From positions 186,001-250,000 of the forward strand of contig JABSPK010000003.1 of assembly GCA_013214065.1 (NCBI GenBank): a stretch of 64,000 bases of DNA, in the 5' to 3' direction. Each line of letters starts with the position of its first letter. The first letter of the stretch is position 1. The notes under the pieces were generated by a model, which saw only the letters and a list, made by a program, of their open reading frames with translations, was not told the origin of the DNA and ran no database searches. Below are positions 13,273 through 57,045 of the stretch, piece by piece. This stretch comes from Flavobacteriaceae bacterium (GTDB taxonomy: Bacteria; Bacteroidota; Bacteroidia; Flavobacteriales; Flavobacteriaceae). Made by a program: the position numbers and the translations under genes.

Positions 13273-14308
13273 CATCAATACTTGGGTAAGACCCTCCGTA
13301 AAAGGATTGCAACCGTATTCTTCCGCCAGGGATGAATTCAAAGGGGCGGATACGGAAATGGTGTTTTTGGATGCTAACGAAAATCCCTTTGAAAACGGTG
13401 TGAATCGATATCCCGATCCACAACAGCGGGATTTGAAACGTTATTTGGCTGAACAACGCGGCCTCCGAAGTGGGCAATTGTTATTGGGCAATGGAAGTGA
13501 CGAAGTCTTGGATTTGATTTTTCGGGCGTTTTGTGAACCGAATGTAGATAATATCATCACTTTACCACCCACCTATGGCATGTACAAAGTGCTTTCGGGC
13601 ATCAATGCGATAGCGAACAGGGAAGTACTGTTGAACGAACGCTTTGAACCGGATGTCAAGGCGATATTGAATAGGGTAGACCCGAACACGAAAATCCTTT
13701 TCCTATGTTCTCCGAACAATCCGACAGGTAATGTTTTCAATAGGGATACGGTTACCGAATTGCTTCAAAAATTTCAAGGTTTGGTGGTCATCGATGAGGC
13801 TTACATCGATTTTACACAGCAACCGTCATGGACCATGGAGCTGGACAACTACCCGAATCTGATCGTTACCCAAACCTTATCGAAAGCCTATGGCATGGCC
13901 GGCATACGTTTGGGGATTTGTATCGCATCGAAAGCGATTATTGAAGTACTTAACAAGATCAAACCGCCTTATAATGTCAACGCTTTAACACAAAGCAAGG
14001 CCTTGCAAGGGTTGCGAAACGAGCGAAGGTCTTCTGAAGTACGACACATTTTGGAAGAACGTGAGCAACTTGCAAAAGCTTTGGAAACCGTGCGGTTCGT
14101 TGAAAAGACCTTCCCGACCGAAGCCAATTTCATTCTAGCTCGGGTGGACGATGCCGATCGCCGCTATAAGGAGTTATTGGCGTTGGGTATCGTAGTGCGG
14201 AATCGGTCATCACAAGCCCGATGTGAGAACACCTTACGCTTTACCATCGGAACAAAAGAAGAGAACAAGTTGTTATTGGATGCATTAAAACAATTGGACA
14301 ATGGCTAA
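13259..14308 (+). CDS. hisC: Histidinol-phosphate aminotransferase
   Basis: 349 residues, fold type I PLP enzyme converting imidazole-acetol phosphate to histidinol phosphate. Features are the substrate/PLP region [29 protein letters not shown], the cofactor-binding NNPTGN and DEAYIDF motifs, the Schiff-base Lys in [14 protein letters not shown], and the Arg motif LRFTIGT near the C-terminus. The ATG lies inside hisD (14-base overlap), and the 3' end overlaps hisB by 8 bases, in line with one tightly coupled operon. Confidence 0.97.
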
Positions 14309-15437
14309 AAAGGTATTATTCATCGATAGGGACGGCACCCTGGCCCGAGAACCACAAGACGAACAGCTCGATGCCTTCGAAAAGTTGGTTTTTTACCCTA
14401 AAGTGTTCACCTACTTGGGTAAAATTGCCGAGGAATTGGATTTCGAATTGGTTATGGTGACCAACCAAGATGGTCTGGGAACACCCTCTTTTCCGGAAGC
14501 GGATTTTTGGCCTGTCCAAAATTTCTTGATACAGAGCTTTGAAAGTGAAGGTGTTGTGTTTTCTGAAGTATGTATCGACCGTACCTTTGCGAAAGACAAT
14601 GCCCCGACACGGAAACCGAATACGGGCTTGCTCACACATTTTCTGACAGCGGAATATGACATGGAAAACTCCTTCGTCATTGGGGATCGCTTGACCGATA
14701 TGGAGCTAGCCAAGAACTTAGGGGCGAAAGGTATCTTTATTAACGACGAAACGCACTTTGGTGTAGATGAAATAACAGTTTCAAAGACTGACCTTTCTGC
14801 CTACATCGCGCTGGAAACCAATGATTGGAAAGCCATATATCGTTTTTTAAAACGCACAAAGCGTGAAGGAAAAATAAAAAGAACGACCCACGAAACCGAT
14901 ATTGATATTACCCTAGATCTTGACGGCACGGGGGTTTCGAAGATCGATACGGGCTTAAAATTCTTCGATCATATGCTAGATCAATTGGCGCGACATGGCC
15001 AAATGGATTTGCAAATCACGGTCAAGGGCGACCTTGAGGTTGATGAACACCATACCATTGAAGATACCGGAATTGCGCTTGGGGAGGTATTCCATGAAGC
15101 CCTGGGCACCAAATTGGGCATTGAACGCTATGGGTTTTGCCTTCCCATGGACGATTGCCTGGCGCAGGTTGCCATAGATTTTGGTGGGCGCAATTGGTTG
15201 GTATGGGAAGCGGACTTCAAAAGGGAGAAAATCGGTGACATGCCCACCGAGATGTTCCATCACTTCTTTAAATCCTTTACGGATGGGGCGAAAGCCAATC
15301 TGAACATCAAAGTGGAAGGAAACAACGAACACCACAAAATAGAGAGCGTTTTCAAGGCCTTCGCCAAAGCTATAAAAATGGCGGTCAAACAAGATATTGA
15401 AAAAATGGTATTGCCATCAACAAAGGGGGTGTTATGA
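14301..15437 (+). CDS. hisB: Bifunctional histidinol-phosphatase / imidazoleglycerol-phosphate dehydratase
   Basis: 378 residues. The N-terminal HAD phosphatase (about 1-165) has the catalytic FIDRDGTL, then TNQDG and the late [12 protein letters not shown] motif. The C-terminal dehydratase (about 185-378) has the two manganese-binding His clusters [10 protein letters not shown] and [10 protein letters not shown], plus [15 protein letters not shown]. This is the fused two-step form known from enterics and Bacteroidota. It overlaps hisC by 8 bases and hisH by 4 bases. Confidence 0.97.
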
Positions 15438-16012
15438 AGGTAGTGATCATCGACTATGGTGCAGGAAACATTCAAAGCATCAAATTTGCCTTTCAACGTT
15501 TGGGCGTGAATGCCATACTGAGCAACGATCGCCAAACCATCGAAGCCGCCGACAAGGTCATTTTTCCGGGGGTTGGCGAAGCCAGTAGCGCTATGGGCAA
15601 GCTTAATGAAAGTGGTTTGCATACCCTCATCCCGACCCTGCGACAACCCGTATTGGGCATTTGCCTTGGCATGCAACTGATGTGCCGTTCTTCGGAAGAA
15701 GGCGCGACACAGGGACTTGGCATTTTCGATACGGAGGTGGTCCGTTTTACCAACGGTTTAAAGGTGCCACAAATCGGATGGAACAAAATACAGCAACTTC
15801 GCTCCCCCTTGTTCACAGGGCTAGAGGATGACTACATTTATTTGGTACACAGCTTTTATGCCCCATTGACCGAGAACACCATAGCCCAAAGCACTTATGG
15901 GTTCGCCTATAGTGCCGCTTTGCAAAAAGACAATTTTTACGGGGTACAATTCCACCCGGAGAAGTCCAGCACCTATGGTGCCGAGATCCTAACGAATTTC
16001 TTGAAGTTATGA
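15434..16012 (+). CDS. hisH: Imidazole glycerol phosphate synthase, glutaminase subunit
   Basis: 192 residues, class I glutamine amidotransferase. It supplies ammonia to HisF. The catalytic triad is C77 in [10 protein letters not shown]174 and E176 in VQFHPEKS. It starts with [15 protein letters not shown], typical of HisH. The start overlaps hisB by 4 bases (ATGA), and the end overlaps the GNAT gene by 4 bases. Confidence 0.97.
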
Positions 16013-16431
16013 AGGGAGCCGGCTACCAAATATCGACCGACCCCGATAAATTGGATATCGATTTTGTATATCGGTATCTGAGTCAAGACGCCTATTGGTC
16101 AAAGGGGAGGACCAAGGTTCAGGTCGAAACGGCCATAGCCCATTCCCTATGTTTTGGAATGTATTCACCCGATGGATCCCAAATAGGATTCGCACGGGTA
16201 GCTACCGACTACGTGGTGTTCGCCTGGTTGATGGACGTATTCATTTCACCAGGGTATACCGGTCAGGGCCTTGGCAAGAGCCTAATCCGTCATGTAATGG
16301 AGCACCCCGAACTACAGCAAGTCAACGGTTTTGGTCTTCGAACCAAGGATGCCCAAGCCCTCTACCGTAAATTTGGCTTTGAAACGATTGAAGACCCCGA
16401 TACATGGATGTTTAAAGACAATTTGAAATGA
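16009..16431 (+). CDS. GNAT-family acetyltransferase inside the his operon
   Basis: 140 residues. A GNAT fold is supported by the acetyl-CoA pyrophosphate loop in [16 protein letters not shown] (Q/RxxGxG/A), the preceding strand WLMDVFI, and the C-terminal [17 protein letters not shown]. The substrate is unknown. The gene overlaps hisH by 4 bases and hisA by 4 bases, so it is fully embedded in the operon and made with the His enzymes. A role in modifying a pathway intermediate or in damage repair is possible but not shown. Confidence 0.88.
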
Positions 16432-17207
16432 GGATCATACCCGCAATTGATATCATCGATGGGAAGTGTGTTCGTTTGACAAAAGGCGATTACAATTCTA
16501 AAAAAGTGTACAGTGACGACCCCTTGGAAATGGCCAAACGATTTGAAGGTCACGGAATCTCCCATTTACATCTTGTCGATTTGGATGGGGCAAAATCCAA
16601 GCATATCGTCAATCACCGTATTTTGGAAACTTTGGCAAGCAAAACCGAATTAAAAATTGATTTTGGAGGGGGCTTGAAAAGCGATGAAGATCTGCGCATA
16701 GCTTTTGAAAGCGGGGCCCGACAAGTGACCGGTGGAAGCATAGCCGTAAAGGACAAGGCAACTTTTTTGGGATGGATCGAACGTTTCGGTCCCGAAAAGA
16801 TCATTCTTGGCGCCGATGCCGACAACGGCTTCATCGCAGTATCAGGATGGCAGGAAGCTTCCGAAATGAAACTGATTCCGTTCATCAAAAAATTCCAAAA
16901 ACAGGGCATTAAGAATGTCATTTGTACCGATATCTCAAAGGATGGGATGTTGGCCGGACCGGCATTCGAGCTTTACGGTGAGATTTTAAAAGAAACCCAA
17001 GTGACCCGCACCGAAATAGGGGGTAGCGGTGTTGTCGATCACCTTGAAAATGGGATCAATCTGATTGCCAGCGGGGGCATTTCTACCATTGACGAGCTGC
17101 CGAAACTAGCCAAAACCGGATGTGAAGGGGTAATCATCGGTAAAGCCATATACGAAGAACGCATCAGTCTGAAAGCACTGGAAACCTATATCATAAACCA
17201 TGGATAA
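16428..17207 (+). CDS. hisA: ProFAR isomerase
   Basis: 259 residues, TIM barrel that isomerises the aminoaldose ProFAR to the aminoketose PRFAR. The start [22 protein letters not shown] is diagnostic, with the N-terminal catalytic Asp in AIDI and a second Asp in [14 protein letters not shown]. Phosphate-binding motifs are GGGLKSDED and ASGGIST. It carries an insert before the last half ([33 protein letters not shown]), longer than in enteric HisA. It overlaps the GNAT gene by 4 bases and the DinB-like gene by 8 bases. Confidence 0.95.
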
Positions 17208-43310: not shown

Positions 43311-44156
43311 TCAATAACTTGCACCGACTTCCACAAACGAATTCCGAAGATGGAACCGTGGCGGAACAGGAGACGCCATACAGCAGGTAGAGCCTAGGTA
43401 AAACAAGGCTAGCTCGGCCAATTTTTTGACTTTGGCCCCTAAGGCGACATCGGCATGTAAAGCAATGGTACCCACCGCTGGCCCTCCAACAATGGAAAGA
43501 TACCATGTGCGGCCCTGACCGTCAACGATATCGATATTATACCGTTCGTTTCGAAAAGCGGGCAATGAAGGATTCTGTTTGTAGATCCATGGGCGTAAAA
43601 CCACTAAATCACCCGGCACATGCTGGATCCGGCAAATGGTCCCATCAATAGGGGAATGGATCCGATGATAGTTCTTATTATGTAAGAACACATTGGTAAA
43701 GGTGTGCGTGCTGGGCACTTCGGCACCAAAAACCGTCTGAACCCCACGACGGTCGCATTTGACCTGCACCGTATCAATGGCAGCGACCTTATCTTCTTCG
43801 CAAAGGAGTCCTTCGCAAGGCCAAACCCAGGGACTCTCATTTTTAGGAAGCTCTTTGAACTCCCGGGTAAAGAAGTCTTGAAAGGTCTCGAATTCGGTTT
43901 TTCTATCGGGTGGATTGAACTTGTCCAAGTAGGTCTCATCGTTGTAGTTGACCTTGATGTACGGTTTGATGATCCATTTCGAAATCGGTTTATCGTAGAT
44001 GCTGGCATACCATTGCGATAGTTTTCTTTGGGTCGTGCTCGGCAGACCACCCCAAACCTTCACGGAAAAAAAGCGGTAGAGGTAGGCCCGCCATTGCGGG
44101 ACTTGGAATACGGTAAAACTAGGATCGGAATAGTAGTTGTCGGTAGAAAGTTCCAT
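43311..44156 (-). CDS. Phosphatidylserine decarboxylase-like protein
   Basis: 281 residues. The self-cleavage motif LGST is present in ALFYLGSTCCMASP, which would give the pyruvoyl group. Other family marks are FQDFFTREFKELP, the catalytic-loop FLHNKNYHRIHSPIDGTI and IVGGPAVGTI. It therefore has the residues of the PSD fold (decarboxylation of phosphatidylserine to phosphatidylethanolamine). The short segment after LGST ends VEVGASY, so the alpha chain would be small (about 40 residues), and no hydrophobic anchor is visible. It may act on another serine or amino-acid conjugate. Confidence 0.75.
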   Translation of the reverse strand: MELSTDNYYSDPSFTVFQVPQWRAYLYRFFSVKVWGGLPSTTQRKLSQWYASIYDKPISKWIIKPYIKVNYNDETYLDKFNPPDRKTEFETFQDFFTREFKELPKNESPWVWPCEGLLCEEDKVAAIDTVQVKCDRRGVQTVFGAEVPSTHTFTNVFLHNKNYHRIHSPIDGTICRIQHVPGDLVVLRPWIYKQNPSLPAFRNERYNIDIVDGQGRTWYLSIVGGPAVGTIALHADVALGAKVKKLAELALFYLGSTCCMASPVPPRFHLRNSFVEVGASY

Positions 44157-45045: not shown

Positions 45046-46809
45046 TTGTTAGGTTCAATCGACCCTTCAAACCTTTACAGCATTTTTAAATTGAATACCC
45101 GAGAATTACTATCGCACTTATCGAAGCTGGAAACAGGCTTGGATAACTTCTCTTTCACCGAATTGAATTCCAAAGAAGCGCAAAAACTCAAACAATCGTT
45201 CGAAACCTTCAAGACCGGTCTTGAAGAAAAAGTGTTCGGCGAGCCTGAATCGGCTGCCGCCAAGTCAGCACGACCTAGCGAGGCGGAAACTACTTTGGTA
45301 GCGAATGTCAGTCATGAAATTCGAACGCCACTGAACGGAATCCTAGGGTTTATCGAGCTCTTAAGGGAAACCGAATTGGATGTCGAACAGCAACAATTGG
45401 TCAATGCCATGGGTACGGCTTCCAACCATTTGATGGACATCATCAATGAACTTCTTGAATTCTCAAAACTGGCCGCTGGGCGGGAGACCTTCGAACAGGT
45501 CCCTTTTCATTTGGTCAACTTGGTGAAGGAAGTCACTTTTCTTTGCCAAACCTTGATCACGGAAAGCCAGGTCAAGCTCAAAGTCGAAATCGACGAAAAC
45601 ATCCCCAACCACCTTATTGGAGATCCATCGAAGTTATCACAGATCCTCTTGAACTTGATGGGTAACGCGATCAAATTCGTTAAGGAAGGGGAAGTGCGGT
45701 TGAACATCCGGATAAAGGGTAACGAAAAACAACGGACCTATTTGGAATTTGAAGTTTCCGATACCGGCATCGGTATCGCTAACGATCAATTGAAACGCAT
45801 ATTCGAATCCTACCAACAAGCCGAAGACGACACTTTTGCCAAATACGGAGGGTCTGGATTGGGGCTTAGTATCGTTAAGGAAATCGTAGAAAAACAACAA
45901 GGTTGTATCGCAGTCAAAAGTACCTTAGGGGTAGGCACGACCTTTCAGGTCATCCTGCCATTCGGAAAAACCAAGGAAATGACGACTGAATCGGTACCGC
46001 CGGTGGCCAAACCGAACTTGGATCCAAAAAGCATCCGGGGTGCACGCATTTTGGTTTTCGAAGACAATACCATGAACCAAAAACTGATGTACAACCGATT
46101 GAAGAATTGGGGTTGCAAAAGCTACATCACTGAAAATGGAATTTATGGACTTAAACTGTTGGAAAACCACCCCATCGATCTGGTATTGATGGATTTGCGA
46201 ATGCCTGGTATGAACGGACTAGAAATCACGAAACGTATCCGTGAAAGCCATATCGCCCGTGTACGCAACATCCCTATCATCGCCGTCTCCGCGGATTTCA
46301 GCTTGAACGACCAAAAACATTGTCGACAGTGGGGCATCAACGACTTCATCTTAAAACCCTATGATTCAGAAGAATTACAGCTAATGATAGCGAACCATAT
46401 GGCCCAATCAGTGACCCAACACCTTGGATTTAATGAAACTGCTGCAACCTCGCAACGCTACCCACTAATCAACCTTGATCCCATTGAGAAGGAGTGCCTC
46501 GGGCAGATCGAACTGCTTGAAGAACTGGTACGACTATTCAAACAGAACATGCTCGAGTTCATCGGAAATGTGAAATTGCATATAGACGGTCGTAACATCC
46601 AGGGCATTGGGTTTGCCGCACACAAAATCAAGTCGAGTTTAAAGATGATGGAGGCCAAATCGTTGTCCGAATTATGCGAGCAACTTTCCGAAGAATGCAA
46701 AGACGGTGGCGACTTTCAAGTATTGAAAAACCTGTATTTGGAGTTTGTCGAGGCCTACCCCCAAGTTGAACAGCTCTTGGATCAGGAGATGGAAAAAAGA
46801 AAATCATAA
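45046..46809 (+). CDS. Soluble hybrid histidine kinase (HK-REC-Hpt)
   Basis: 587 residues from a TTG start; an in-frame TAA lies three codons upstream and no ATG occurs before the kinase core, so TTG 45046 is the likely start. No signal, membrane helix or sensor domain: an N-terminal helical region (about 1-80), HisKA with the phospho-His in VANVSHEIRTPLNGILGF (about 90), HATPase_c with NLMGNAIKF, DTGIGI and GGSGLGLSI, a receiver (about 335-455) with Asp in LVLMDLRMPG, and a C-terminal Hpt with phospho-His in AAHKIKSSLKMM. It leads the glycan operon. The signal may come from a partner protein. Confidence 0.9.
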   Translation: MLGSIDPSNLYSIFKLNTRELLSHLSKLETGLDNFSFTELNSKEAQKLKQSFETFKTGLEEKVFGEPESAAAKSARPSEAETTLVANVSHEIRTPLNGILGFIELLRETELDVEQQQLVNAMGTASNHLMDIINELLEFSKLAAGRETFEQVPFHLVNLVKEVTFLCQTLITESQVKLKVEIDENIPNHLIGDPSKLSQILLNLMGNAIKFVKEGEVRLNIRIKGNEKQRTYLEFEVSDTGIGIANDQLKRIFESYQQAEDDTFAKYGGSGLGLSIVKEIVEKQQGCIAVKSTLGVGTTFQVILPFGKTKEMTTESVPPVAKPNLDPKSIRGARILVFEDNTMNQKLMYNRLKNWGCKSYITENGIYGLKLLENHPIDLVLMDLRMPGMNGLEITKRIRESHIARVRNIPIIAVSADFSLNDQKHCRQWGINDFILKPYDSEELQLMIANHMAQSVTQHLGFNETAATSQRYPLINLDPIEKECLGQIELLEELVRLFKQNMLEFIGNVKLHIDGRNIQGIGFAAHKIKSSLKMMEAKSLSELCEQLSEECKDGGDFQVLKNLYLEFVEAYPQVEQLLDQEMEKRKS

Positions 46810-46819
46810 AGCCGACGCC

Positions 46820-47200
46820 TTGGAACGAAACAAGATTTTATTGGCTGAAGACGACGAAATGCTGGCATCATTGCTGAGCTACCGCCTCGAAAAGGCGGGT
46901 TTTTTCGTTACGGTTACCCAAGACGGTAAAGAAGTCTTGGCCGCATTGGAAAATGAATTGCCGGATGCCATCATCAGTGATATCATGATGCCCTATTGTT
47001 CGGGGATCGAGTTGGTGGATCATTTACGCAACTCGATACGATCGGGTATACCGATCATTTTAATATCGGCGGCTTCCAATGAAGACAATGTATTGAGTGC
47101 CTTGCAAATGGGGGCAAATGACTTTATATCGAAACCTGTAAGTCCTTCTGAATTGGTCGTACGGGTCACTCGGGAAATCAATCGTTTTTACGCCACTTGA
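46820..47200 (+). CDS. Single-domain response regulator
   Basis: About 126 residues, one receiver domain with LLAEDDE, phospho-acceptor Asp in AIISDIMMPYCSGIEL, ILISAAS and the Lys in DFISKPVSP. There is no output domain, so it probably acts by protein contact, e.g. on the HEAT protein or glycosyltransferase next to it. The start is inferred: TTG 46820, 10 bases after the kinase stop, just before ERNKILLAEDD; no ATG lies upstream of the core. The end overlaps the HEAT gene by 4 bases (TTGA). Confidence 0.85.
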   Translation: MERNKILLAEDDEMLASLLSYRLEKAGFFVTVTQDGKEVLAALENELPDAIISDIMMPYCSGIELVDHLRNSIRSGIPIILISAASNEDNVLSALQMGANDFISKPVSPSELVVRVTREINRFYAT

Positions 47201-49281
47201 TCTATAACGCAAATATCGCCCTATTGCCTAAGATCCATTCGGATCTATTATGGGACCTGACCATGCTTTTCGGCATTTTAGGCGGGGTGTATTTTGCCTT
47301 CATTTTCCTTTTCAGGAACCGGATTTCCAAGACCTATCTAAAAACCATTGCAAAGCGAAAGAAGCTGGCGCCGATCATCAGTAATTTCCTGTTCCACAGT
47401 GATACGGATCCTGAAAGTGAACAACGGGACTATGTCAAACTGAAAATCGAAATCAGGGAATACCTCAATGACCGTAGGTTCCGAAAAATCTTGGCCGATA
47501 TCCTATTCGATTTACAGAAGGACGTTTCAGGTGAGACGCAAGAGCGCTTGTTCCGTTTGTTCAAGGAAATGGGACTACACCACGATTCTATCGCGAAATT
47601 GCGCTCCTGGCACTGGCCCAAGGTATCGAAAGGGATTTTGGAGTTGGCACAGATGCAGGTCTCCGTTGCGTATGAGCCCATTAAGGCCTTCGTCAACGAT
47701 AAAAGGCGCGTCGTGCGAAAGCAGGCCGAATTGGCCCTTGTTGCCATGAATAAAGGCGGCATCGAATTCCTTCTTGATACGACCACCTACACCATCAGTG
47801 AATGGCAACAATTGAAACTCATTGAGGCCATGGCCCGTTTGGAGGATTTCCGACCCCCAAAATTCAAGACTTGGCTGACCTCCGAAAACCGTGATGTGGT
47901 CTTGTTTTCATTGCGATTGATCAAGCACTACAACCAGCGTGAAGCGGTGCTTTCGATTATCGAATTGACCAAGCATAAGGAAGATGTGATCAAAATCGCT
48001 GCCGTACAATGCATCGCCCATTTTGGCTTTACGGAAGCCCTAGAACCTTTAAAACAAGTGTTTTGGGGGTGTCAAGTACCTGTTAAAATCCAAATATTGA
48101 CCGCGGTTTCCAAAATCGGGGGTGCTTCCGAACTGGAATTCCTCTATCAAGTAAAAGATAATGAACAACACTTTTCGGTGGCGAGTAAAGCGATGGGGGC
48201 GATCAATACCATCCGCCCAGATTCCGTGCTACCGACCAAAGACATCTTAGACGACCTTTCTTTTTCCGATTTGGAAGTCCATGAAGAAACCGTGGTGACC
48301 AAAACGACCATTTTGGATACCACAAAGACCGATAACGACTTTCCAAAGCCCGATGAAAAAGAAACATCACCTTTGGACATCGAAGTCCAAGAAGTCGAAG
48401 TGTTCGATGTCATTGAATCCCCTTTGACACAACCACAAATTGCTAAAATTCCGGAAGAGGCAGATCCCGCGACACCTTTTGAGTTGGAGCCGTTGTCAGA
48501 TGATATGGATGAAGCGGTCAACCATTCCTTGAATTTAATACCCGCCAATGAATCGGCACCCGAAACACCTGATGACCAGAAAGAGGACTTTAGTAGGTTG
48601 ACCACCGATGAGCGAATCAGTTTTGTCAACGATCATACCAAGACCCACCCCAAACAAAAGACCGATTTCTTGGAATTCGTCGTTGAGAACGACGGTGATA
48701 GCGAGGTACGCTACCAAGCCTTCAAAAACATCAAACAGGCCAATAAGCCAGCGCCTGAAATGGAAGAAACCGTCGAAGAAAACGATGGGGATACCCCTTC
48801 AATGGCCGAAGACAGTATATTTTATAGCCTATTCAACCACGCCTCCGATGAGGACTCAAAAGAAATCCTGATCAAGGAATTGATCGAATTGGCCGACCAT
48901 CGAGATCTACCGTTTTTGTATGGGGTGGCCAAAGAGACTTCGAATACCACATTGAGCAAACTGGTGCAAAAAGCGATTTCCATTTTCGAACCCGCAAAAC
49001 AACAGTTTGATGAAGTGGTGACCAAAGTACGTGATACAGCGGTTCAAATAGCCGATTTGGAAGTTTCGTTCACTGAAATCAAGGTTGAAAAAGCCATCGA
49101 ATCGGAAGCTTCAAGGTCGGAAAAGCTCCCCTTGGAACTTTGTTTTTTGTACGATGAGCTTGGGATCAAACCTTCAAAAGAAGAAGATACCGGTTTTGAT
49201 TTTGAATTGTCGGATGAGTTTTACCTCGAATTAAGACGGGAAGCCGTTTCACCCAAAAACCAAGAGCAGGATGGGGAATAG
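47197..49281 (+). CDS. Membrane-anchored HEAT-repeat protein of the glycan operon
   Basis: 694 residues from TTG 47197, which overlaps the TGA of the response regulator. One N-terminal membrane helix (about 20-42) is followed by cytosolic-type alpha repeats (about 80-345; e.g. VVRKQAELALVAMNKGGIEFLL, EDVIKIAAVQCIAHFGFTEALEPL). An acidic, Thr/Pro/Glu-rich linker (about 350-500) and a second helical repeat block (about 510-640; DSEVRYQAFKNIK) complete it. HEAT repeats are scaffolds. Between a receiver protein and a glycosyltransferase gene, with an 11-base overlap with the latter, it is a candidate link between phosphorelay and synthase. Confidence 0.82.
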   Translation: MIYNANIALLPKIHSDLLWDLTMLFGILGGVYFAFIFLFRNRISKTYLKTIAKRKKLAPIISNFLFHSDTDPESEQRDYVKLKIEIREYLNDRRFRKILADILFDLQKDVSGETQERLFRLFKEMGLHHDSIAKLRSWHWPKVSKGILELAQMQVSVAYEPIKAFVNDKRRVVRKQAELALVAMNKGGIEFLLDTTTYTISEWQQLKLIEAMARLEDFRPPKFKTWLTSENRDVVLFSLRLIKHYNQREAVLSIIELTKHKEDVIKIAAVQCIAHFGFTEALEPLKQVFWGCQVPVKIQILTAVSKIGGASELEFLYQVKDNEQHFSVASKAMGAINTIRPDSVLPTKDILDDLSFSDLEVHEETVVTKTTILDTTKTDNDFPKPDEKETSPLDIEVQEVEVFDVIESPLTQPQIAKIPEEADPATPFELEPLSDDMDEAVNHSLNLIPANESAPETPDDQKEDFSRLTTDERISFVNDHTKTHPKQKTDFLEFVVENDGDSEVRYQAFKNIKQANKPAPEMEETVEENDGDTPSMAEDSIFYSLFNHASDEDSKEILIKELIELADHRDLPFLYGVAKETSNTTLSKLVQKAISIFEPAKQQFDEVVTKVRDTAVQIADLEVSFTEIKVEKAIESEASRSEKLPLELCFLYDELGIKPSKEEDTGFDFELSDEFYLELRREAVSPKNQEQDGE

Positions 49282-50701
49282 CTTTTTCGACTTATTGATC
49301 GAATACATCAACATCATTTTCATGGTGTTCACGGTGGTCTTGTTTACCATGTTCAGTTTCATGGGTTATTTTTCGACCCGCAATGCCATCCATTACAAAA
49401 ACAAAAACAGCTTTGGGGATTTGAGCAAGGTCATGGCTTCGCCAATCGCACCCTCCATAACGATTATAGCACCAGCCTACAACGAAGGCTTGAACATCGT
49501 TGAAAACATTCGATCGCTTTTATCACTGAAATACGTGAATTACGAGGTTATGGTGGTCAATGATGGCAGCAAAGACGATACCCTTGAGAAAATGATCGCC
49601 GCGTATGATCTTGAAAAGATCGACAAGCCCATCGACCCGAACTTGAAATCAAAACCCATTCGGGGCATCTATCGTTCGAAACATCGCTCTTTTTCGAAAC
49701 TTACGGTAATCGATAAGGAAAACGGGGGTAAATCGGATGCCTTGAATTGCGGAATTTATTTATCCGAAAACGATTATGTCGGCTGTATCGATGTCGATTG
49801 TTTGCTCAAACCCGATGCCTTGTTGCATGTGGTCAAATCGTTTACGCAGCGCTCAAAAAAGAAGGTAATCGCCGTTGGCGGGGTCATCAGGGTCGCCAAT
49901 TCATGCCGAATTACAGGTGGGGCCTTGGAACAGATCAATTTACCGAAGAACTGGTTGGCGAAGTTCCAGCTGCTTGAGTACACCCGCTCTTTTCTATTGG
50001 GACGGATGGCCTGGGGGCGGATCGACAGTCTTTTGATCATCTCCGGTGCCTTTGGGTTCTTCGATCGTCAGATCGCCTTAGCGGTCGGTGGGTATGATAC
50101 CAGTACGGTGGGGGAGGACATGGAAATCATTTTTCGCATGCGTCGCTATATGCATGACCTACGACAGCCATACACGATCGAGTACATCCCGGATCCTTTG
50201 TGCTGGACCGAAGTCCCCGAAGATCTTAAGATGCTGGTAAACCAACGCGACCGGTGGGCTAGGGGCAATTTGGAAACCTTGTTCAAACACAAAGACATGT
50301 TCTTCAATTCGAGATTCGGTCGTTTGGGATTGATCAGTTACCCCTATTGGTTTTTTTACGAATGGTTGGCGCCATTATTGGAGTTTTTCGGGTTTTTCAC
50401 CATCATCCTATTCGGATACCTAGGCATTTTGAATTGGTCGTTTTTTCTTGCCTTAACGGCAACGATTTACGCCTTTTCCATCATGTTTTCATTTTACGCC
50501 ATCCTTTGGGATGTCTATACCTACAACGAATACACCAAAACGAAGGATATCTTGACCCTCATGCTATGTGCCATCATAGAACCATTGACCTTTCATCCGG
50601 TCGTGGTATGGGCGGCCATTCGAGGTAATTATAAAAAATTGACAGGCAAAAAAGCAGGATGGGGATCCCAGGTCCGCAAAGGATTGGGCAGCGCCTCATA
50701 A
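49271..50701 (+). CDS. Family 2 processive-type membrane glycosyltransferase
   Basis: 476 residues. An N-terminal helix (about 8-32) precedes the GT-A domain (about 55-330). It has SITIIAPAYNEGLNIVENIRSLL, VVNDGSKDDT, the DxD motif in YVGCIDVDCLLKPDAL, the acceptor-site GEDMEIIFRMRR and the processivity motif QRDRW at about 325. Three or four C-terminal helices follow (about 350-440). It is of the PgaC/BcsA/NodC type, polymerising a beta-linked sugar through the inner membrane, but no PilZ domain is fused. The sugar cannot be told from sequence. It overlaps the HEAT gene by 11 bases. Confidence 0.9.
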   Translation: MGNSFFDLLIEYINIIFMVFTVVLFTMFSFMGYFSTRNAIHYKNKNSFGDLSKVMASPIAPSITIIAPAYNEGLNIVENIRSLLSLKYVNYEVMVVNDGSKDDTLEKMIAAYDLEKIDKPIDPNLKSKPIRGIYRSKHRSFSKLTVIDKENGGKSDALNCGIYLSENDYVGCIDVDCLLKPDALLHVVKSFTQRSKKKVIAVGGVIRVANSCRITGGALEQINLPKNWLAKFQLLEYTRSFLLGRMAWGRIDSLLIISGAFGFFDRQIALAVGGYDTSTVGEDMEIIFRMRRYMHDLRQPYTIEYIPDPLCWTEVPEDLKMLVNQRDRWARGNLETLFKHKDMFFNSRFGRLGLISYPYWFFYEWLAPLLEFFGFFTIILFGYLGILNWSFFLALTATIYAFSIMFSFYAILWDVYTYNEYTKTKDILTLMLCAIIEPLTFHPVVVWAAIRGNYKKLTGKKAGWGSQVRKGLGSAS

Positions 50702-50710
50702 CGAAATATC

Positions 50711-53092
50711 ATGAACACCAGTCAGCTCGAACGATATAGTTTAAAGCAGTTCACCAGACTCATCATCGCATTCTTTTTGAGTCTGTTGATCCTGTATGCT
50801 TTTCAATACGTGACCCTTTACGTCAAAGGGGTGGTCGACACGATTTTCAGTGCGAGTCTGGGTATTGCCATTGCGCATCAAATGGGCTACACCTCATTGA
50901 TAGCGGTCATCTTGACCTTTCCGTATAATTTTTGGGAGAATTACCGTCCGAGATGGGGATTCAACTTGATATTCTCGGTGCTGGTCATCCTACTGATCAT
51001 CGAGGCTATGCTGATCAGTTATTACACCACGGCATTGGTCCCCTTGGGTTCCGATTTGTTGGGCTATAGTTTTGCCGACATCAAGGAAACCATTTCCAAT
51101 TCAGGTGGCATTTCGATTTGGGCCATCGTTGGTCTTGCCGCGATCATCGCCATCTTTTTCGGAACCTATAAATTGACCTCGCGCTACTACCATTTTATCG
51201 GAAGGATGTATCCCTTTACCATCGTCTTGTTCAGTTTGTTCATTTCGACCTTGTTTTTGGAAGGGAAGCCCATCAACCAAAACAAAAGCCAATATTTGGC
51301 GGTCAATCTGTACAACAGTTCTACGGAAGACACTACCTATGAGGCCGATGTCGAATATCCGCTCATCAAAAACCATAGTTTCGATAATGTACTTGCCCCG
51401 TTTTTCGAAATGAAATCGGAAAAACCGAATCTGGTTTTTTTCATAGTGGAAGGTCTTGGTCGCGATTTCGTGGGTGAAAACGCCGAATTCGAAGGATTTA
51501 CGCCCTTTTTGGACTCCTTGAGCCAAAAATCACTGTATTGGGAAAACTGTCTCAGCAATACCGGACGGACTTTCGGGGTCTTGCCCGGTATCATGGGATC
51601 CTTACCCTTCGGTAAAAGTGGTTTTATGGAACTGGAGAAATATCCGAATAAGTTAACACTGTTCAGTATCCTAAAGAACAACGGCTATAAAACCTCGTTT
51701 TATCAAGGCACCAATAGCTCCTTCGACAACGTCGATCGTTTCCTGCAAAGCGAGAATGTCGATTTCGTTTTGGATAAATCGGGTTTTGGTTCCCAATATG
51801 AAATGCAGGCTGAAGACGCGGCGGGTTCTTCTTGGGGTTATCCTGACATGGAGCTCTTCAAGAAAAGCATGAGCTTGAAACGTGCCGACGGACAGGCCCG
51901 GATGGAAGTCTATATGACCATCAGCAACCACGAGCCCTTCATACCGCCGCGACAAGCGCATTATGAAGCCCAGGTGAAACAAATCTTGAAAGGTAGCGGA
52001 CTTGATGCACGCACCCAAAAGGTCATCCGCAAAAACGACAATGTATTCGCAACTTTATTGTATACCGATGACGCCTTACGCTATGCATTCAACGCTTATA
52101 AAAACCAACCGGGTTATGAAAACACCATTTTCATAGTCACCGGTGACCACCGATTGATCCCGATTCCACAGCGAAACACTTTAAGCCGTTTTCACGTACC
52201 CTTGATCATGTATAGTCCGCTGTTGAAATCACCCCGCAAGATGAGTGCGTTGAACTCACATTTCGATATCACGCCGACCCTTCTCAGCCTGCTTGAAGGG
52301 GCCTATGAGATGAAAATGCCCAAAAAAGTCGCCTGGATGGGGGGCTCTTTGGACACCGAAGTCGCCTATAGGTCGACTAAAGACATCCCGCTCATGCGAA
52401 ACAAAAACGAATTAAAAGAGTACGTCAGCGGTGAAAAACTGTATTCAGACGGTGCGACCTATGATATCGACGGATCGATGAACCTGAGCAGTTCCTTTTC
52501 TGGCGGGGGTATCGACAAAAAACTAAAGGCGTTCAAGTCCATGAATGCATATGTCACCAGCCAGAACAAGATCATTCCCGATAGTTTGGCCATTTTTTCG
52601 GTCAAGAAAGAAAAGTTCACTGAAAGTGAAATGGTCTGGGTCAGCAGTCTCTACAACGGCCAGAATTTCGATCGGTATTATATGATCGCCCGGCAGTTGG
52701 CCTTCGATAAGGACTATGACAAGGCATTGCTGCTTTGTCGATACATCTTGTCTGAATCACCCAGTCATATCGACACCAAGGTCCTGACCGGTCGAATCAA
52801 TGCTTGGCGAAGGAACCGTGATAAGGCGATTGAAATATTACAAGATTGCATTGCCACCAACCCCAATTACATCGACTCCTATGCAGCCCTTTTCGATGTG
52901 TACTTCTGGGGTGATCGCCACTACCAGGCCTTAGAACTCATCGAAACCGTACAAGCGAACAGTTCAAGCGCCCATATGGTGGCCGATAAAATCGCAAGGG
53001 CCAAGCGTGAAGCTAAAAAACATGGCGTGCGCTTACCAAAGAAAAAGAAAGAAACCAAGGATCAAATGGCCAGTTTAAGTTTGGATCAATGA
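50711..53092 (+). CDS. LtaS-like membrane phosphotransferase/sulfatase-fold protein with C-terminal TPRs
   Basis: 793 residues. Five membrane helices lie within about 13-185. A periplasmic alkaline-phosphatase-superfamily domain follows (about 235-560): PNLVFFIVEGLGRDF, the nucleophile region NTGRTFGVLPGIMGSLPFG with Thr at about 283-286, and the metal site VTGDHRLIPIP (about 477). The sulfatase C/S-x-P-x-R motif is absent and a Thr is present, which favours a phosphoglycerol or phosphoethanolamine transferase (LtaS/OpgB type). TPR-like helices fill about 645-760. It probably decorates the glycan made next door. It lies 9 bases after the GT and overlaps the YaiO gene by 4 bases. Confidence 0.82.
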   Translation: MNTSQLERYSLKQFTRLIIAFFLSLLILYAFQYVTLYVKGVVDTIFSASLGIAIAHQMGYTSLIAVILTFPYNFWENYRPRWGFNLIFSVLVILLIIEAMLISYYTTALVPLGSDLLGYSFADIKETISNSGGISIWAIVGLAAIIAIFFGTYKLTSRYYHFIGRMYPFTIVLFSLFISTLFLEGKPINQNKSQYLAVNLYNSSTEDTTYEADVEYPLIKNHSFDNVLAPFFEMKSEKPNLVFFIVEGLGRDFVGENAEFEGFTPFLDSLSQKSLYWENCLSNTGRTFGVLPGIMGSLPFGKSGFMELEKYPNKLTLFSILKNNGYKTSFYQGTNSSFDNVDRFLQSENVDFVLDKSGFGSQYEMQAEDAAGSSWGYPDMELFKKSMSLKRADGQARMEVYMTISNHEPFIPPRQAHYEAQVKQILKGSGLDARTQKVIRKNDNVFATLLYTDDALRYAFNAYKNQPGYENTIFIVTGDHRLIPIPQRNTLSRFHVPLIMYSPLLKSPRKMSALNSHFDITPTLLSLLEGAYEMKMPKKVAWMGGSLDTEVAYRSTKDIPLMRNKNELKEYVSGEKLYSDGATYDIDGSMNLSSSFSGGGIDKKLKAFKSMNAYVTSQNKIIPDSLAIFSVKKEKFTESEMVWVSSLYNGQNFDRYYMIARQLAFDKDYDKALLLCRYILSESPSHIDTKVLTGRINAWRRNRDKAIEILQDCIATNPNYIDSYAALFDVYFWGDRHYQALELIETVQANSSSAHMVADKIARAKREAKKHGVRLPKKKKETKDQMASLSLDQ

Positions 53093-54378
53093 TGGGAAGT
53101 AACCGCACATATAAGCTGCTTGCACTGGTCTTCATGACCTTACGACTGTCGGCCCAATCAGTTGCCTTTACCGACATGGAAGCCTTTGAAGAAGCCTACG
53201 AGTTGGCCTTTGACGATAAATACCAAGCGGCCAAAACCGTTCTCTTGGAGGCCGACGTGAACAAGAACGACCAACTTGAAGCACAGCTCTTGTTGGCCCA
53301 TACCCACAGTTGGGCAGGGCAATATGGAAAGGCCAGGGAGCTTTTCAACAAAATTACCACGGTCCATCGATCGAACCGCACAGCGTGGATTTCGGCCGTC
53401 AAAAACGAATTATACGCGGGCAACAACGCGATTGCTATAGGCCTGGCCAATAAAGGTTTGGTTTATATACCCGAAGATCGCGAATTGGTGCGCCTGCTCA
53501 GCATGGCAAAAACGCGGTATGCCAAAACGGAGTATCCTGCATTGGGGTGGCACAATCAAGACACCCGACCTGCTAAAAAAGCAACCAAAGTAGCCGCTTC
53601 GGGCCCTCCGGCCCCAGAACAGATTACCGAACCCGAATTGCCGAAAAACCGGATCGGTGTCAATAATTCGTTCACGGTGTTCAGCGAACGCTACGACCCC
53701 ATGATTTTTTCAAGCGTTTCCTTTTTGAGACGGACCAAATTCGGAAGCATTATACCAAGGATCAATTACAGCAACCGATTGGGTCAGCACGGGGTGCAAT
53801 TCGATATCGACCTCTATCCGAAGATCGCCAAGAAGATGTATGCCTATCTTAATTATGGGTATTCCAACGCTGAAATCTATCCGAGTCATAAATTCGGTGG
53901 GGACCTGTATTGGAATTTCAATATCCCTGCCGCCTTTGAATTCTCGGCCGGTGGACGGTTCATCAAGACCCAAACACAAGATATCACCATCATCACCAAT
54001 TCCCTTGGGCATTACAGCGGCAACTATTACTTTTCGCTGCGTTCGTACATTACCCCAAGGCCCGATAACCTAACGCGTTTTTCATCCAACCTTTTGGTGA
54101 GAAAGTATTTTAGGGATGGGGAGAACTTTCTGGGCTTCAACGTGGGTATGGGTTTTTCTCCGGAGTTGCGCCAGTATTTTTCAGGTGAGGAATTGCTTTC
54201 GGAAACCATTTTGTACATCGAAACCCAACGGCTGAATCTCGAATACCAGTTTACGAGTAAGAACAGTCCGAATATCTACCGGATCAATCTTGGGGTGCGA
54301 AGGCAGGAATTGGCCTTTGATTCAGGCCGTTTCTTTTGGGGCATTTCAGCCGGGATCAACTATCAAGTGAAATTCTAG
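53089..54378 (+). CDS. YaiO-family outer-membrane beta-barrel protein
   Basis: 429 residues. A signal peptide ends near RLSAQ (about 23). The N-terminal TPR-like part (about 30-150, YQAAKTVLLEADVNKNDQLEAQLLLAHTHSWAGQYGKARELF) and a Pro/Lys linker lead to a barrel (about 190-429) with VNNSFTVFSERYDPMIFSSVSFLRRTKFGSIIPRINYSNR, the YaiO pattern. A TPR domain plus barrel recalls PgaA/AlgE-type export porins. As the last gene of the glycan operon it probably gives the exit across the outer membrane. The end overlaps the convergent GDPD gene by 4 bases. Confidence 0.87.
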   Translation: MMGSNRTYKLLALVFMTLRLSAQSVAFTDMEAFEEAYELAFDDKYQAAKTVLLEADVNKNDQLEAQLLLAHTHSWAGQYGKARELFNKITTVHRSNRTAWISAVKNELYAGNNAIAIGLANKGLVYIPEDRELVRLLSMAKTRYAKTEYPALGWHNQDTRPAKKATKVAASGPPAPEQITEPELPKNRIGVNNSFTVFSERYDPMIFSSVSFLRRTKFGSIIPRINYSNRLGQHGVQFDIDLYPKIAKKMYAYLNYGYSNAEIYPSHKFGGDLYWNFNIPAAFEFSAGGRFIKTQTQDITIITNSLGHYSGNYYFSLRSYITPRPDNLTRFSSNLLVRKYFRDGENFLGFNVGMGFSPELRQYFSGEELLSETILYIETQRLNLEYQFTSKNSPNIYRINLGVRRQELAFDSGRFFWGISAGINYQVKF

Positions 54379-55673
54379 TCTTCGTTAGGGGCACCACCAT
54401 AAGCGTCGAAAACCCAGTTATCGGCATACATGCCGTAGACCAGGCCCAACTCATTTTCCTGCACGTACACCTCGTCTTTTCCAGGGTCGAAATTGACATT
54501 GTATACGAACACTTTAACACCTTGGTCGCGTAGGGAAGCAAGCAGTTTCTTATGCGAGCTGACGATGCGTCTTGAGACAGCTGCATATTGAATGTTGTTG
54601 ATGGCGAGGTAATCCAAGGCTTTACCGCGTAAAGCGAGCAAAGGTTCTTGTGAAATCATGGCGGCAATGCCGTTTCTTGAAGCTTCCTCAAGGGTTAACC
54701 TACTGAAGAGCTCCATGATCAAACGGTCTTTGTCGACAAAGGCTTGGGCGAAGGCCATGGGGTCGTTTAACTTATCGGTCACCAGATAGGCATCCGGATG
54801 GGCGGCGAACCACGCATTGATGGCCGGCAAATCCACGGTATGGTAATCCCCGTAAATTTTATGTTTTTTAAACTCCTTTAAGGAAGGTGGTAGGCTTCCC
54901 TGAAAATCCGTGAAACGCGCCCACATTTTCCAATCGTGTGCAGCCACTAAATATCCGTCCGAAGTAGTGATGATGTCCAATTCGAAATAGCGGAACCCAT
55001 TTTTGTAATTCGCATCCAAAGCCTCGATGGAATTGGTCGATTTGACACCGTTGACCACGCCTGCGGCATGGGCTATATAGCGATCGTTTCGGGCATCAAA
55101 AGTGTAGGTTTCCTTCGGAAAATAGATGGTCGGGTCCGAAATGCCTTCCGGTATCGTGATGTTCTGGTTCAACTCCGTACCGTCGACCCACTCTTTCAAT
55201 TCGCCATTGAGGTTGTGAGCGACATACGCTTCACGACTTTTCAATGCTGCTAAGGTTTCAAAACCCAAAGCCTGTAAGGCGGCGGTATCACCAAAACTAC
55301 CGGGTACCGCCGAATCATGGGCCAAAAGCACAAAATAGGCTTGCTTTGATCGCAGCTGTCGTAAAAGCTCCAACACTTCTTGTCTGGCCTCGGCACTACC
55401 ATAAGTGTCAAGGGTTTTGTATTCTACGGTTGAGCTTGAATTGAAATGGATGACGGTCAATCCACGTTGCGCGTATTCCTTTTGGCCGTCAAGACCGAAC
55501 CAACTACGTTTTTTCGCATTGAAACTACAGCTTGCCAACTGAAGTTCCGTTTCGCTTTCAAGACGTTCGGCCATGGCATTCAGCGCATTGGGAATAGCAA
55601 GACTGATCACCCAAAAGAAAAGGAACAAGCGATAAAAAAGAGTTGGACTTACGATAGTGGAATTGAAATGCAT
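54375..55673 (-). CDS. Secreted ILEI-domain / GDPD-like fusion protein
   Basis: 432 residues. The signal peptide (about 1-33) precedes a domain (about 68-165) that reads RGLTVIHFNSSSTVEYKTLDTYGSAEAR...FVLLAHDSAVPGSFGD..QALGFETLAALKSREAYVAH, which matches the ILEI/FAM3 (interleukin-like EMT inducer) fold known from FAM3 and POMGNT1. The second half (about 190-430) is GDPD-like: H202, E231, D233 and H246 of the active site are kept, but the Arg after the first His is Ala (AHAAG), and the later EIK-type motif reads TDK. It faces the YaiO operon tail to tail; a role in trimming phosphodiester groups on the glycan is inference. Confidence 0.75.
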   Translation of the reverse strand: MHFNSTIVSPTLFYRLFLFFWVISLAIPNALNAMAERLESETELQLASCSFNAKKRSWFGLDGQKEYAQRGLTVIHFNSSSTVEYKTLDTYGSAEARQEVLELLRQLRSKQAYFVLLAHDSAVPGSFGDTAALQALGFETLAALKSREAYVAHNLNGELKEWVDGTELNQNITIPEGISDPTIYFPKETYTFDARNDRYIAHAAGVVNGVKSTNSIEALDANYKNGFRYFELDIITTSDGYLVAAHDWKMWARFTDFQGSLPPSLKEFKKHKIYGDYHTVDLPAINAWFAAHPDAYLVTDKLNDPMAFAQAFVDKDRLIMELFSRLTLEEASRNGIAAMISQEPLLALRGKALDYLAINNIQYAAVSRRIVSSHKKLLASLRDQGVKVFVYNVNFDPGKDEVYVQENELGLVYGMYADNWVFDAYGGAPNED

Positions 55674-56178: not shown

Positions 56179-57045
56179 TTATCCTCCTAAATAGGTTTTC
56201 AATATCTTACTTTTCGAACTGTGTCGCAGTTTTCGAATGGCCTTTTCCCGTATTTGCCGCACCCGCTCCCGCGTCAGGTCGAACGTACTCCCGATTTCCT
56301 CCAAGGTCATTGAAGGCTGTTCGCCGATACCATAGTACAAGCGGACGACGTCGGCCTCACGGGGCGAAAGTGTTTCCAAAGCTCTGTTGATTTCGGTATT
56401 CAATGACTGGTGCATCAGGCCTTTATCAGGTTTTGGTGATTCACCGGCACGCATCACGTCATAGAGGCTTGAGGTTTCCCCTTCCTTTAACGGGGCATCC
56501 ATAGAGACATGTCTTCCCGAATTCTGTAACGATTGTTTGACTTCACTGACCGTCATGTCGAGCTCTTTGGCGATTTCTTCCGCCGAAGGAGGGCGTTCAT
56601 GGGCCTGCTCAAGGTATGAGAACGTCTTTTTGATCTTATTGATCGATCCGATTTTGTTCAAAGGCAGGCGAACCACTCTAGATTGTTCGGCCAAGGCCTG
56701 TAAAATGGATTGTCTGATCCACCAAACCGCATACGAAATGAACTTAAACCCACGGGTCTCATCAAATCGTTTTGCCGCTTTGACCAATCCCACGTTTCCT
56801 TCATTGATCAAATCGGGCAAGGTGAGCCCTTGGTTTTGATATTGTTTGGCCACCGAAACGACGAATCGAAGGTTGGCATTGGTTAATTTTTCTAGGGCCA
56901 GTTGATCTCCTTCGCGGATCTTTTGGGCCAATTCAACTTCTTCTTGGGCAGTGATCAGCTCGATTTTGCTGATGTCTTGTAGGTATTTATCTAGGGATTT
57001 GGATTCACGATTGGTTACTTGTTTAATGATTTTTAGTTGCCTCAT
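56179..57045 (-). CDS. rpoD: Primary sigma factor, short Bacteroidota form
   Basis: 288 residues, lacking region 1.1 and the non-conserved region, as is usual in Bacteroidota. Region 1.2 is at [31 protein letters not shown]. Region 2 has [57 protein letters not shown]; region 3 has [21 protein letters not shown]. Region 4.2 reads [29 protein letters not shown]. This factor reads the TAnnTTTG promoters seen through the window. The 241 bases upstream (57046-57286) carry the start of the helicase gene's control region and no gene. Confidence 0.95.

Follow-up and report, generated by a model that had tools for sequence, protein, structure and literature searches.

A lone receiver and a membrane HEAT-repeat protein as the candidate switch of a processive-type glycosyltransferase in a flavobacterial operon

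We analysed a window of 64,000 nucleotides from a Flavobacteriaceae bacterium (GenBank assembly GCA_013214065.1, contig JABSPK010000003.1, positions 186,001 to 250,000), in which six consecutive genes encode a hybrid histidine kinase, a lone receiver, a HEAT-repeat protein, a family 2 glycosyltransferase (GT2), a transferase resembling the lipoteichoic acid synthase LtaS, and a YaiO-type outer-membrane protein. We propose, with a probability of roughly 0.6, that this operon is a synthase-dependent polysaccharide secretion system whose GT2 is switched by a phosphorelay through the receiver and the HEAT protein. What is new, and largely supported by the evidence given here, is the control variant, in which receiver and HEAT protein stand in the place of cyclic di-GMP (c-di-GMP). 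A preliminary description, made from the letters of the window alone, had inferred a complete unit that makes, decorates, exports, and trims a surface glycan. That interpretation is supported in good part, and we re-centre it on the set of receiver, HEAT, and GT2 genes.

A number of arguments favour this reading. First, the gene neighbourhood is conserved across Bacteroidota. Three queries were run against 296 genomes of the phylum: the LtaS-like protein, a GT2 profile (E<=1e-60), and a HEAT profile (E<=1e-15). The GT2 family occurs in 70 of these genomes and 43 of 140 genera, with 78 matches in all. Every one of the 54 HEAT-profile matches (48 genomes) lies upstream of this GT2 on the same strand, at 450 bases or less in 50 cases; the other four gaps, of 905-1684 bases, belong to close relatives including the window's genome (G234, G000, G134, and G182; G and L numbers are our handles for genomes and loci), in which the HEAT frames extend far past the profile match. 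The surroundings of 18 of the 24 GT2 matches lacking an upstream HEAT-profile match were read, together with two loci that have one, and 14 of the 18 have an adjoining HEAT gene, mostly diverged (only 12 bits in L179). A second sample, the best 80 of 581 matches confirmed by scanning genome contigs with a profile of the GT2 alignment, covers Zobellia, Maribacter, Robiginitalea, Flavobacterium, Polaribacter, Chryseobacterium, Empedobacter, Sphingobacterium, Mucilaginibacter, Chitinophaga, and Pontibacter, among other genera, plus metagenome-assembled genomes labelled Bacteroidales and Chlorobiota; around half of these loci come from the window's close kin, and counts over the 80 are therefore not independent events. 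In 78 of them the gene immediately upstream of the GT2 encodes HEAT; of the two exceptions, L121 is truncated where its contig begins, and L150 is a contig of 5 kb on which the GT2 frame is shortened and no HEAT gene was called. Within four genes upstream we found a lone receiver (<170 amino acids) in 70 loci and a kinase resembling that of the window in 50 (49 on the same strand); an LtaS-like gene stands within 9 kb of the GT2 in 69, YaiO in 68, and a GDPD gene beside the operon in 15.

Further samples agree with this picture. Among 40 neighbourhoods (L046-L085; 29 chosen by LtaS-like similarity, 10 by HEAT, and L085 as a contrast through a weak LtaS-like match), a HEAT frame is directly upstream of all 38 GT2 genes found, and the contrast locus has no GT2, HEAT, or YaiO. 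The HEAT protein of the window matched in 15 of 60 near genomes. Strong LtaS-like matches in the 296 genomes (E<=1.9e-79) lie within 6 kb of a GT2 in 28 cases out of 30, and the misses are G081, on a 6.3-kb contig, and G093, which has a second copy at a GT2. GT2 and LtaS-like protein even form a single frame at 16 of the 80 loci and 9 of the 40. An arrangement this regular lies well outside what chance would produce, and the HEAT-GT2 linkage counts rule out chance adjacency. Constancy decreases from receiver, HEAT, and GT2 to LtaS-like protein and YaiO, then to the kinase, and finally to GDPD; of the complete six-gene unit first described, the conserved core is thus receiver-HEAT-GT2, and the other members are progressively less constant. 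Two side observations concern the extent of the locus: L051 has a second HEAT-GT2-YaiO set (13178-16943) directly after a complete first copy, and a family of around 390 amino acids with a hydrophobic N-terminus, judged by eye, is found at nine of the 40 loci (L053, L061-L068; e.g., L053:12770-13960), one scanned member having no Pfam match at E<=0.1.

Second, the GT2 has the features of a processive-type synthase, namely D, DxD, GED/TED, and QxxRW motifs and a synthase fold with transmembrane (TM) helices. Its motifs are D174xD176, GED at 281-283, and Q325xxRW329, and D174, D176, G281-E282-D283, Q325, R328, and W329 do not vary in either of two alignments, of 23 and of 35 GT2s. The predicted structure (pLDDT 83) has a catalytic domain flanked by helices on either side, like that of synthases, and Foldseek matched it to hyaluronan synthases first, then to BcsA and chitin synthases (VIA Z of 23.1-25.8 for the first and 20.3-25.4 for BcsA). 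Sequence searches of the PDB gave mostly short GT-A stretches of other glycosyltransferases, and the fold search was used instead. The best NCBIfam score is PgaC_IcaA. The preliminary description had staked its case on a conserved neighbourhood in related genomes and on a GT2 with processive-synthase features in structure comparison, and it came through on both, the motifs being invariant and the fold predicted.

Third, the last gene encodes a candidate exporter. YaiO scores 208.5 bits against PF19413 (cut-off 23.9) and 172.6 bits against TIGR04390 (cut-off 32), and its model (pLDDT 87) has TPR helices at residues 29-146 and 14 predicted strands at 187-428. Foldseek ranks BcsC, in a structure with cellotetraose, first (E 2e-11) and lists PelB (of PelBC) and PgaA (4y25) among the others, and VIA aligns the barrel best with TodX/FadL-, Omp33-, CymA-, and OmpG-type channels. 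A TPR plus beta-barrel outer-membrane protein is therefore predicted to be co-encoded, as proposed at the outset, and Pfam, NCBIfam, the model, and the BcsC match agree on it.

The LtaS-like protein is harder to place. It shows a five-TM pattern in a hydropathy scan. In a profile search the structures of VP1736 (3lxq) and of Gram-positive LtaS align with it, which puts E247, T287, D479, and H480 at the metal-ligand and nucleophile (Thr) positions. It scores 110.9 bits against Sulfatase PF00884 (cut-off 25) and 56 bits against the LtaS equivalog NF053595 (cut-off 970), which places it in the superfamily and outside the equivalog; the five-helix, TPR-bearing LtaS-like transferase of the preliminary description is recovered, with an LtaS-type active site in the window's copy. 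Among 104 homologs above 350 bits (103 distinct, since L048 and L115 are one genome, which "distinct" counts take once), 76 have all four residues, four have Ser for Thr, three are cut, and 21 (20 distinct) are degenerate, defined as having lost two or more of the four residues, or one in addition to truncation. All degenerate forms are near relatives (including Robiginitalea, Eudoraea, Zeaxanthinibacter, Muriicola, Cellulophaga, and some Maribacter; loci include L047-L049, L077, L090-L092, L095, L098, L100, L107, L114-L116, L120, and L123), and most are full-length, with split genes in L097 and L119, and follow the GT2 in the usual position. Together they look like a set of pseudoenzymes. In L091, L095, L107, L114, L120, and L123, identity to the window is 32-46% for the LtaS-like protein versus 71-80% for the GT2. 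Retention of the transferase after loss of its catalytic residues points to a structural role, and the protein is probably not merely a decorating enzyme.

These observations bear on a different reading of the operon, that the product is a teichoic-acid-like or glycolipid phosphopolymer, with the GT2 making a lipid-linked sugar or short glycan and the LtaS-like protein acting as the polymerase. Structures of LtaS and of a lipoteichoic acid primase/synthase match the LtaS-like domain, GT2-LtaS fusions exist, and the GT2 fold also fits PcManGT, a non-processive mannosyltransferase with a cellulose-synthase-like fold. However, the GT2 keeps QxxRW and synthase-like helices flanking the catalytic domain, and 20 distinct close relatives have a degenerate LtaS-like protein and keep the GT2 (and HEAT and YaiO where the contig reaches), so that the LtaS-like protein is unlikely to be a polymerase there. 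In addition, some receiver-HEAT-GT2 sets have no LtaS-like gene within 9 kb (e.g., L127, L128, and L144). We regard this reading as unlikely.

If the LtaS-like enzyme decorates a polysaccharide, then the GDPD-type gene facing the operon could trim it, as the preliminary description suggested. The protein scores 39.6 bits against PF03009 (cut-off 23.6), and E231, D233, H246, and D247 are invariant, with HAxG in the position of HRG in 16 of 16 aligned members (the usual motifs of the family are HRG, ExD, and HD). The label ILEI-GDPD fits the family, because ILEI is found in 12 of the 16, although the window's own protein has no ILEI match (E<=1, and E<=0.1 in a second scan). Where the LtaS-like gene is intact, 17 of 21 near loci have an adjacent GDPD; where it is degenerate, none of 20 distinct loci does, four further near loci with a missing or partial LtaS-like gene being left out; Fisher's test gives 5e-8 (17/21 versus 0/21, L048/L115 counted twice). 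Genome-wide (26 entries, 25 distinct genomes), GDPD relatives occur in eight genomes, i.e., in eight of nine with an intact LtaS-like gene (G182 being without) and in none of 15 distinct genomes with a degenerate one; in G312, G352, and G356, the GDPD lies elsewhere than beside the operon, and G355, whose LtaS-like state is not scorable, has no relative. On the weakly supported GT2 tree there are around three state changes, so the link between GDPD and LtaS-like protein stays suggestive and was dropped as a firm result. The distribution is suggestive of a decorate-and-trim process: the convergent GDPD gene of the preliminary description is present, the association weakens once phylogeny is allowed for, and the HRG motif is altered.

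Fourth, the phosphotransfer residues are conserved, more in the Hpt domain and the receiver than in the kinase. As first described, the kinase is soluble, with no TM segment in a hydropathy scan, and carries HisKA, HATPase_c, Response_reg, and Hpt above their Pfam cut-offs, and the HEAT protein is membrane-anchored, with HEAT_2 and one TM segment (residues 17-41). Of 46 near loci, 40 (39 distinct) have a gene just before a same-strand lone receiver, and the other six (L097, L102, L117, L119, L120, and L121), which show no such gene, were left uncounted. In these genes of close relatives, Hpt His526 is kept in 39 of 39 and HisKA His90 in 29 of 39; the latter is lost in seven shortened genes and replaced in three distinct full-length ones. 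Five of the seven short genes retain only the Hpt residue out of four sites checked, and Pfam finds Hpt above its cut-off in five and more weakly in L093 and L107. The kinase has been worn to an Hpt-bearing remnant in L046, L075, L086, L093, and L103, a Zobellia included, and L120 has a 199-amino-acid gene that bears a receiver and no Hpt match. The phospho-acceptor Asp is present in 103 of 104 distinct short receivers beside HEAT genes. Since the Hpt His outlasts the kinase His, these patterns make the adjacent kinase look replaceable, with Hpt to lone receiver as the persisting link. The gene set and conserved residues fit the two-component control proposed earlier, with the qualification that the adjacent kinase is often damaged. 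The lone receiver has no output domain by Pfam, and direct transcriptional control by it was rejected for this reason. At the deep-branching loci L173 (10236-11216) and L178 (6010-6984), the position of the receiver just before HEAT-GT2 is occupied by a gene for a nucleotide-sugar epimerase, which may hint at the sugar substrate.

Receiver and HEAT protein might also be a signalling pair of general use that acts mainly on something other than the GT2, their location beside it being a regulatory convenience. HEAT repeats are promiscuous scaffolds, and genes intervene between receiver and HEAT at L053, L080, L084, and L185. This is improbable in view of the linkage described above: in the 296 genomes the HEAT family was never found away from this GT2 at E<=1e-15, and it directly precedes it at nearly all GT2-selected loci.

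Fifth, no sign of c-di-GMP control was found in the window's genome. Bcs, alginate, Pel, and Pga synthase systems are described as run by c-di-GMP in PMC8461298. Domain searches of the window's genome gave no GGDEF and no PilZ match, as the preliminary description had anticipated, and the same searches matched controls in 8 (GGDEF) and 5 (PilZ) of 14 genomes. Of the other genomes tested, none of the eight that share the window's class, order, or family has a GGDEF match, against 11 of 18 from other classes; PilZ reached its cut-off in none of 18 genomes, with one match just under it in G231. Some deep-branching homologous loci differ: in L171 and L172 (the latter without a called HEAT gene) a GGDEF-EAL gene immediately precedes the receiver, L166 and L167 carry a degenerate REC-GGDEF-REC gene in which no GGDEF motif was found (no HEAT called in L166), and downstream in L173, L182, and L183 stands a diguanylate cyclase of the CHASE3-GAF-PAS type whose GGDEF is intact (in L182 the GT2 is split and no HEAT was called). 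In G008, G050, G147, and G233, the GGDEF of the locus is the sole one matched in the genome. Since GGDEF and PilZ are absent here and c-di-GMP enzymes stand beside deep-branching relatives, the control input seems to have been exchanged on a constant HEAT-GT2 output, possibly in the direction of c-di-GMP loss. That a cyclic dinucleotide missed by domain searches still governs this GT2, as GGDEF, GGDEF-EAL, or degenerate REC-GGDEF-REC genes at those loci might suggest, is very unlikely given the absence of GGDEF from the window's genome and its eight tested relatives and of PilZ from the former.

Several observations weigh against the proposal of a phosphorelay-switched synthase. PcManGT is as close to the GT2 fold as the synthases are (VIA Z 26.2), so that fold alone is no proof of processivity, and the GT2 reaches 144.7 bits against the PgaC/IcaA equivalog (TIGR03937), whose cut-off is 422.3. 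The YaiO model, with its 14 predicted strands, has a pTM of only 0.57, the BcsC match has TM-scores of 0.32/0.25, and porins and FadL/OmpG-type channels make up most of the fold-match lists. No HEAT gene was called in four of the 18 GT2 loci read for lack of a profile match (L166, L172, L174, and L182), and LtaS-like and YaiO genes are not near 11 and 12 of the 80 GT2s, respectively, some of which are on short contigs. The receiver of L066 has Asn for Asp, and the aberrant receiver of L083 keeps Asp and has lost the conserved Lys; more generally, a receiver could act on another target, and HEAT repeats bind many partners. Enzymes of c-di-GMP metabolism stand at seven of 20 deep-branching loci, in the part of the flanking genes that was scanned. 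Finally, the GDPD association is not significant on the tree, with one to three independent pairs.

For the protein contacts, the direction of regulation, the polymer, and its decoration, we infer the following scheme: 1) a signal would reach the Hpt domain via the adjacent hybrid kinase or another kinase; 2) Hpt would phosphorylate the lone receiver; 3) the phosphorylated receiver would bind or release the membrane-anchored HEAT protein; 4) the latter would switch the GT2 post-translationally, at the point where c-di-GMP acts via PilZ or PgaD in Bcs and Pga; 5) the GT2 would polymerise a glycan and drive it through the inner membrane; 6) the LtaS-like protein would dock to the synthase much as BcsG docks to BcsA and, when intact, add a lipid-derived phospho-headgroup; 7) YaiO would conduct the polymer across the outer membrane; and 8) in some Flavobacteriaceae, the ILEI-GDPD hydrolase would remove or recycle the headgroup. 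A broader version, to which we give slightly less than even odds, is that the receiver and its dedicated membrane HEAT adaptor are a second phylum-wide switch of a processive synthase that replaced c-di-GMP when the messenger was lost toward the window's class, the LtaS-like protein being a structural subunit and, if intact, a decorating enzyme paired with ILEI-GDPD. If true, receiver-HEAT-GT2 would explain the control of matrix polymers in bacteria without GGDEF (the window's genome and the eight tested of its class), and one phospho-Asp and one adaptor would be defined test points. Related loci with c-di-GMP enzymes offer a natural series for the exchange of control inputs on one output.

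The gene calls are collected in Table 1. Open reading frames and Pfam confirm six same-strand genes with successive junctions of +10, -4, -11, +9, and -4 bases, each domain in the order first described being above its Pfam cut-off. The facing GDPD gene is convergent and overlaps the YaiO end by four bases on the other strand. The receiver frame begins at 46745 in the list of open reading frames, and we prefer a TTG start at 46820, 10 bases past the kinase stop, because it fits receiver homologs. Two neighbours complete the picture: a phosphatidylserine decarboxylase gene (Pfam) at 43311-44156 (-), shortly upstream, has no relative in the 40 related neighbourhoods and was left out of the system, and the gene at 56179-57045 (-), presumably for a sigma-70-family factor, is the 3' neighbour of the operon in many close relatives.

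Table 1. Genes of the operon and the facing accessory gene, in positions of the window.
Feature	Position	Strand	Basis
Hybrid histidine kinase HisKA-HATPase-REC-Hpt, 587 aa	45046-46809	+	Pfam, hydropathy
Lone receiver	46820-47200	+	Pfam Response_reg alone
HEAT-repeat protein, 694 aa, one N-terminal TM	47197-49281	+	Pfam HEAT_2, hydropathy
GT2 synthase (predicted), 476 aa	49271-50701	+	Pfam Glycos_transf_2 and relatives, motifs, model, fold search
LtaS-like alkaline-phosphatase-superfamily transferase, 793 aa, TM N-terminus, C-terminal TPR	50711-53092	+	Pfam Sulfatase, TPR_19
YaiO, 429 aa, TPR helices then predicted 14-strand outer-membrane barrel	53089-54378	+	Pfam, NCBIfam, model
ILEI-GDPD accessory	54375-55673	-	Pfam GDPD above cut-off

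No description of this operon came up in searches of the open PMC library, which leaves out subscription papers and preprints. The available part of PMC10434189 holds only separate table entries and no operon description, and a term search of the accessible text of PMC7112194 did not find HEAT or three Bacteroidota taxon words. The components nevertheless resemble those of known systems. With LtaS and VP1736 (3lxq), the window's transferase shares the Sulfatase-superfamily domain, aligned nucleophile Thr and metal ligands, and a multi-TM N-terminus. Unlike LtaS, it is far under the equivalog cut-off, has C-terminal TPRs in its Flavobacteriaceae forms, and belongs to a family in which degenerate forms are retained. 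The likeness to Pga (PNAG) lies in the GT2, whose best NCBIfam model is PgaC_IcaA, and in the YaiO model, whose fold matches include PgaA. According to PMC8461298, c-di-GMP switches PgaCD. In contrast to Pga, the window's GT2 is under the PgaC/IcaA cut-off, the operon has no deacetylase domain, and no PgaD-like gene was recognised in it. The yaiP-yaiO pair of Escherichia coli also places a GT2 near a YaiO barrel; it is not known to have receiver-HEAT control, and no function is known for it.

A close parallel in architecture is the type II Bcs system of E. coli, which likewise joins a GT2 synthase, a membrane transferase of the alkaline-phosphatase type (BcsG), and a TPR-barrel exporter. In PMC11470070, BcsG is described as five TM segments plus a catalytic domain; three copies of BcsG dock on BcsA, and it affects BcsA integrity and is essential for secretion in some strains. 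By its docking on BcsA, BcsG is a parallel for the structural role that the LtaS-like protein may have. Unlike BcsG, the window's transferase matches LtaS/3lxq and is fused to the GT2 in some lineages, and the barrel is of the YaiO family. Unlike Bcs as a whole, the window's genome has no PilZ or GGDEF match, and in their place stand a lone receiver and a HEAT protein.

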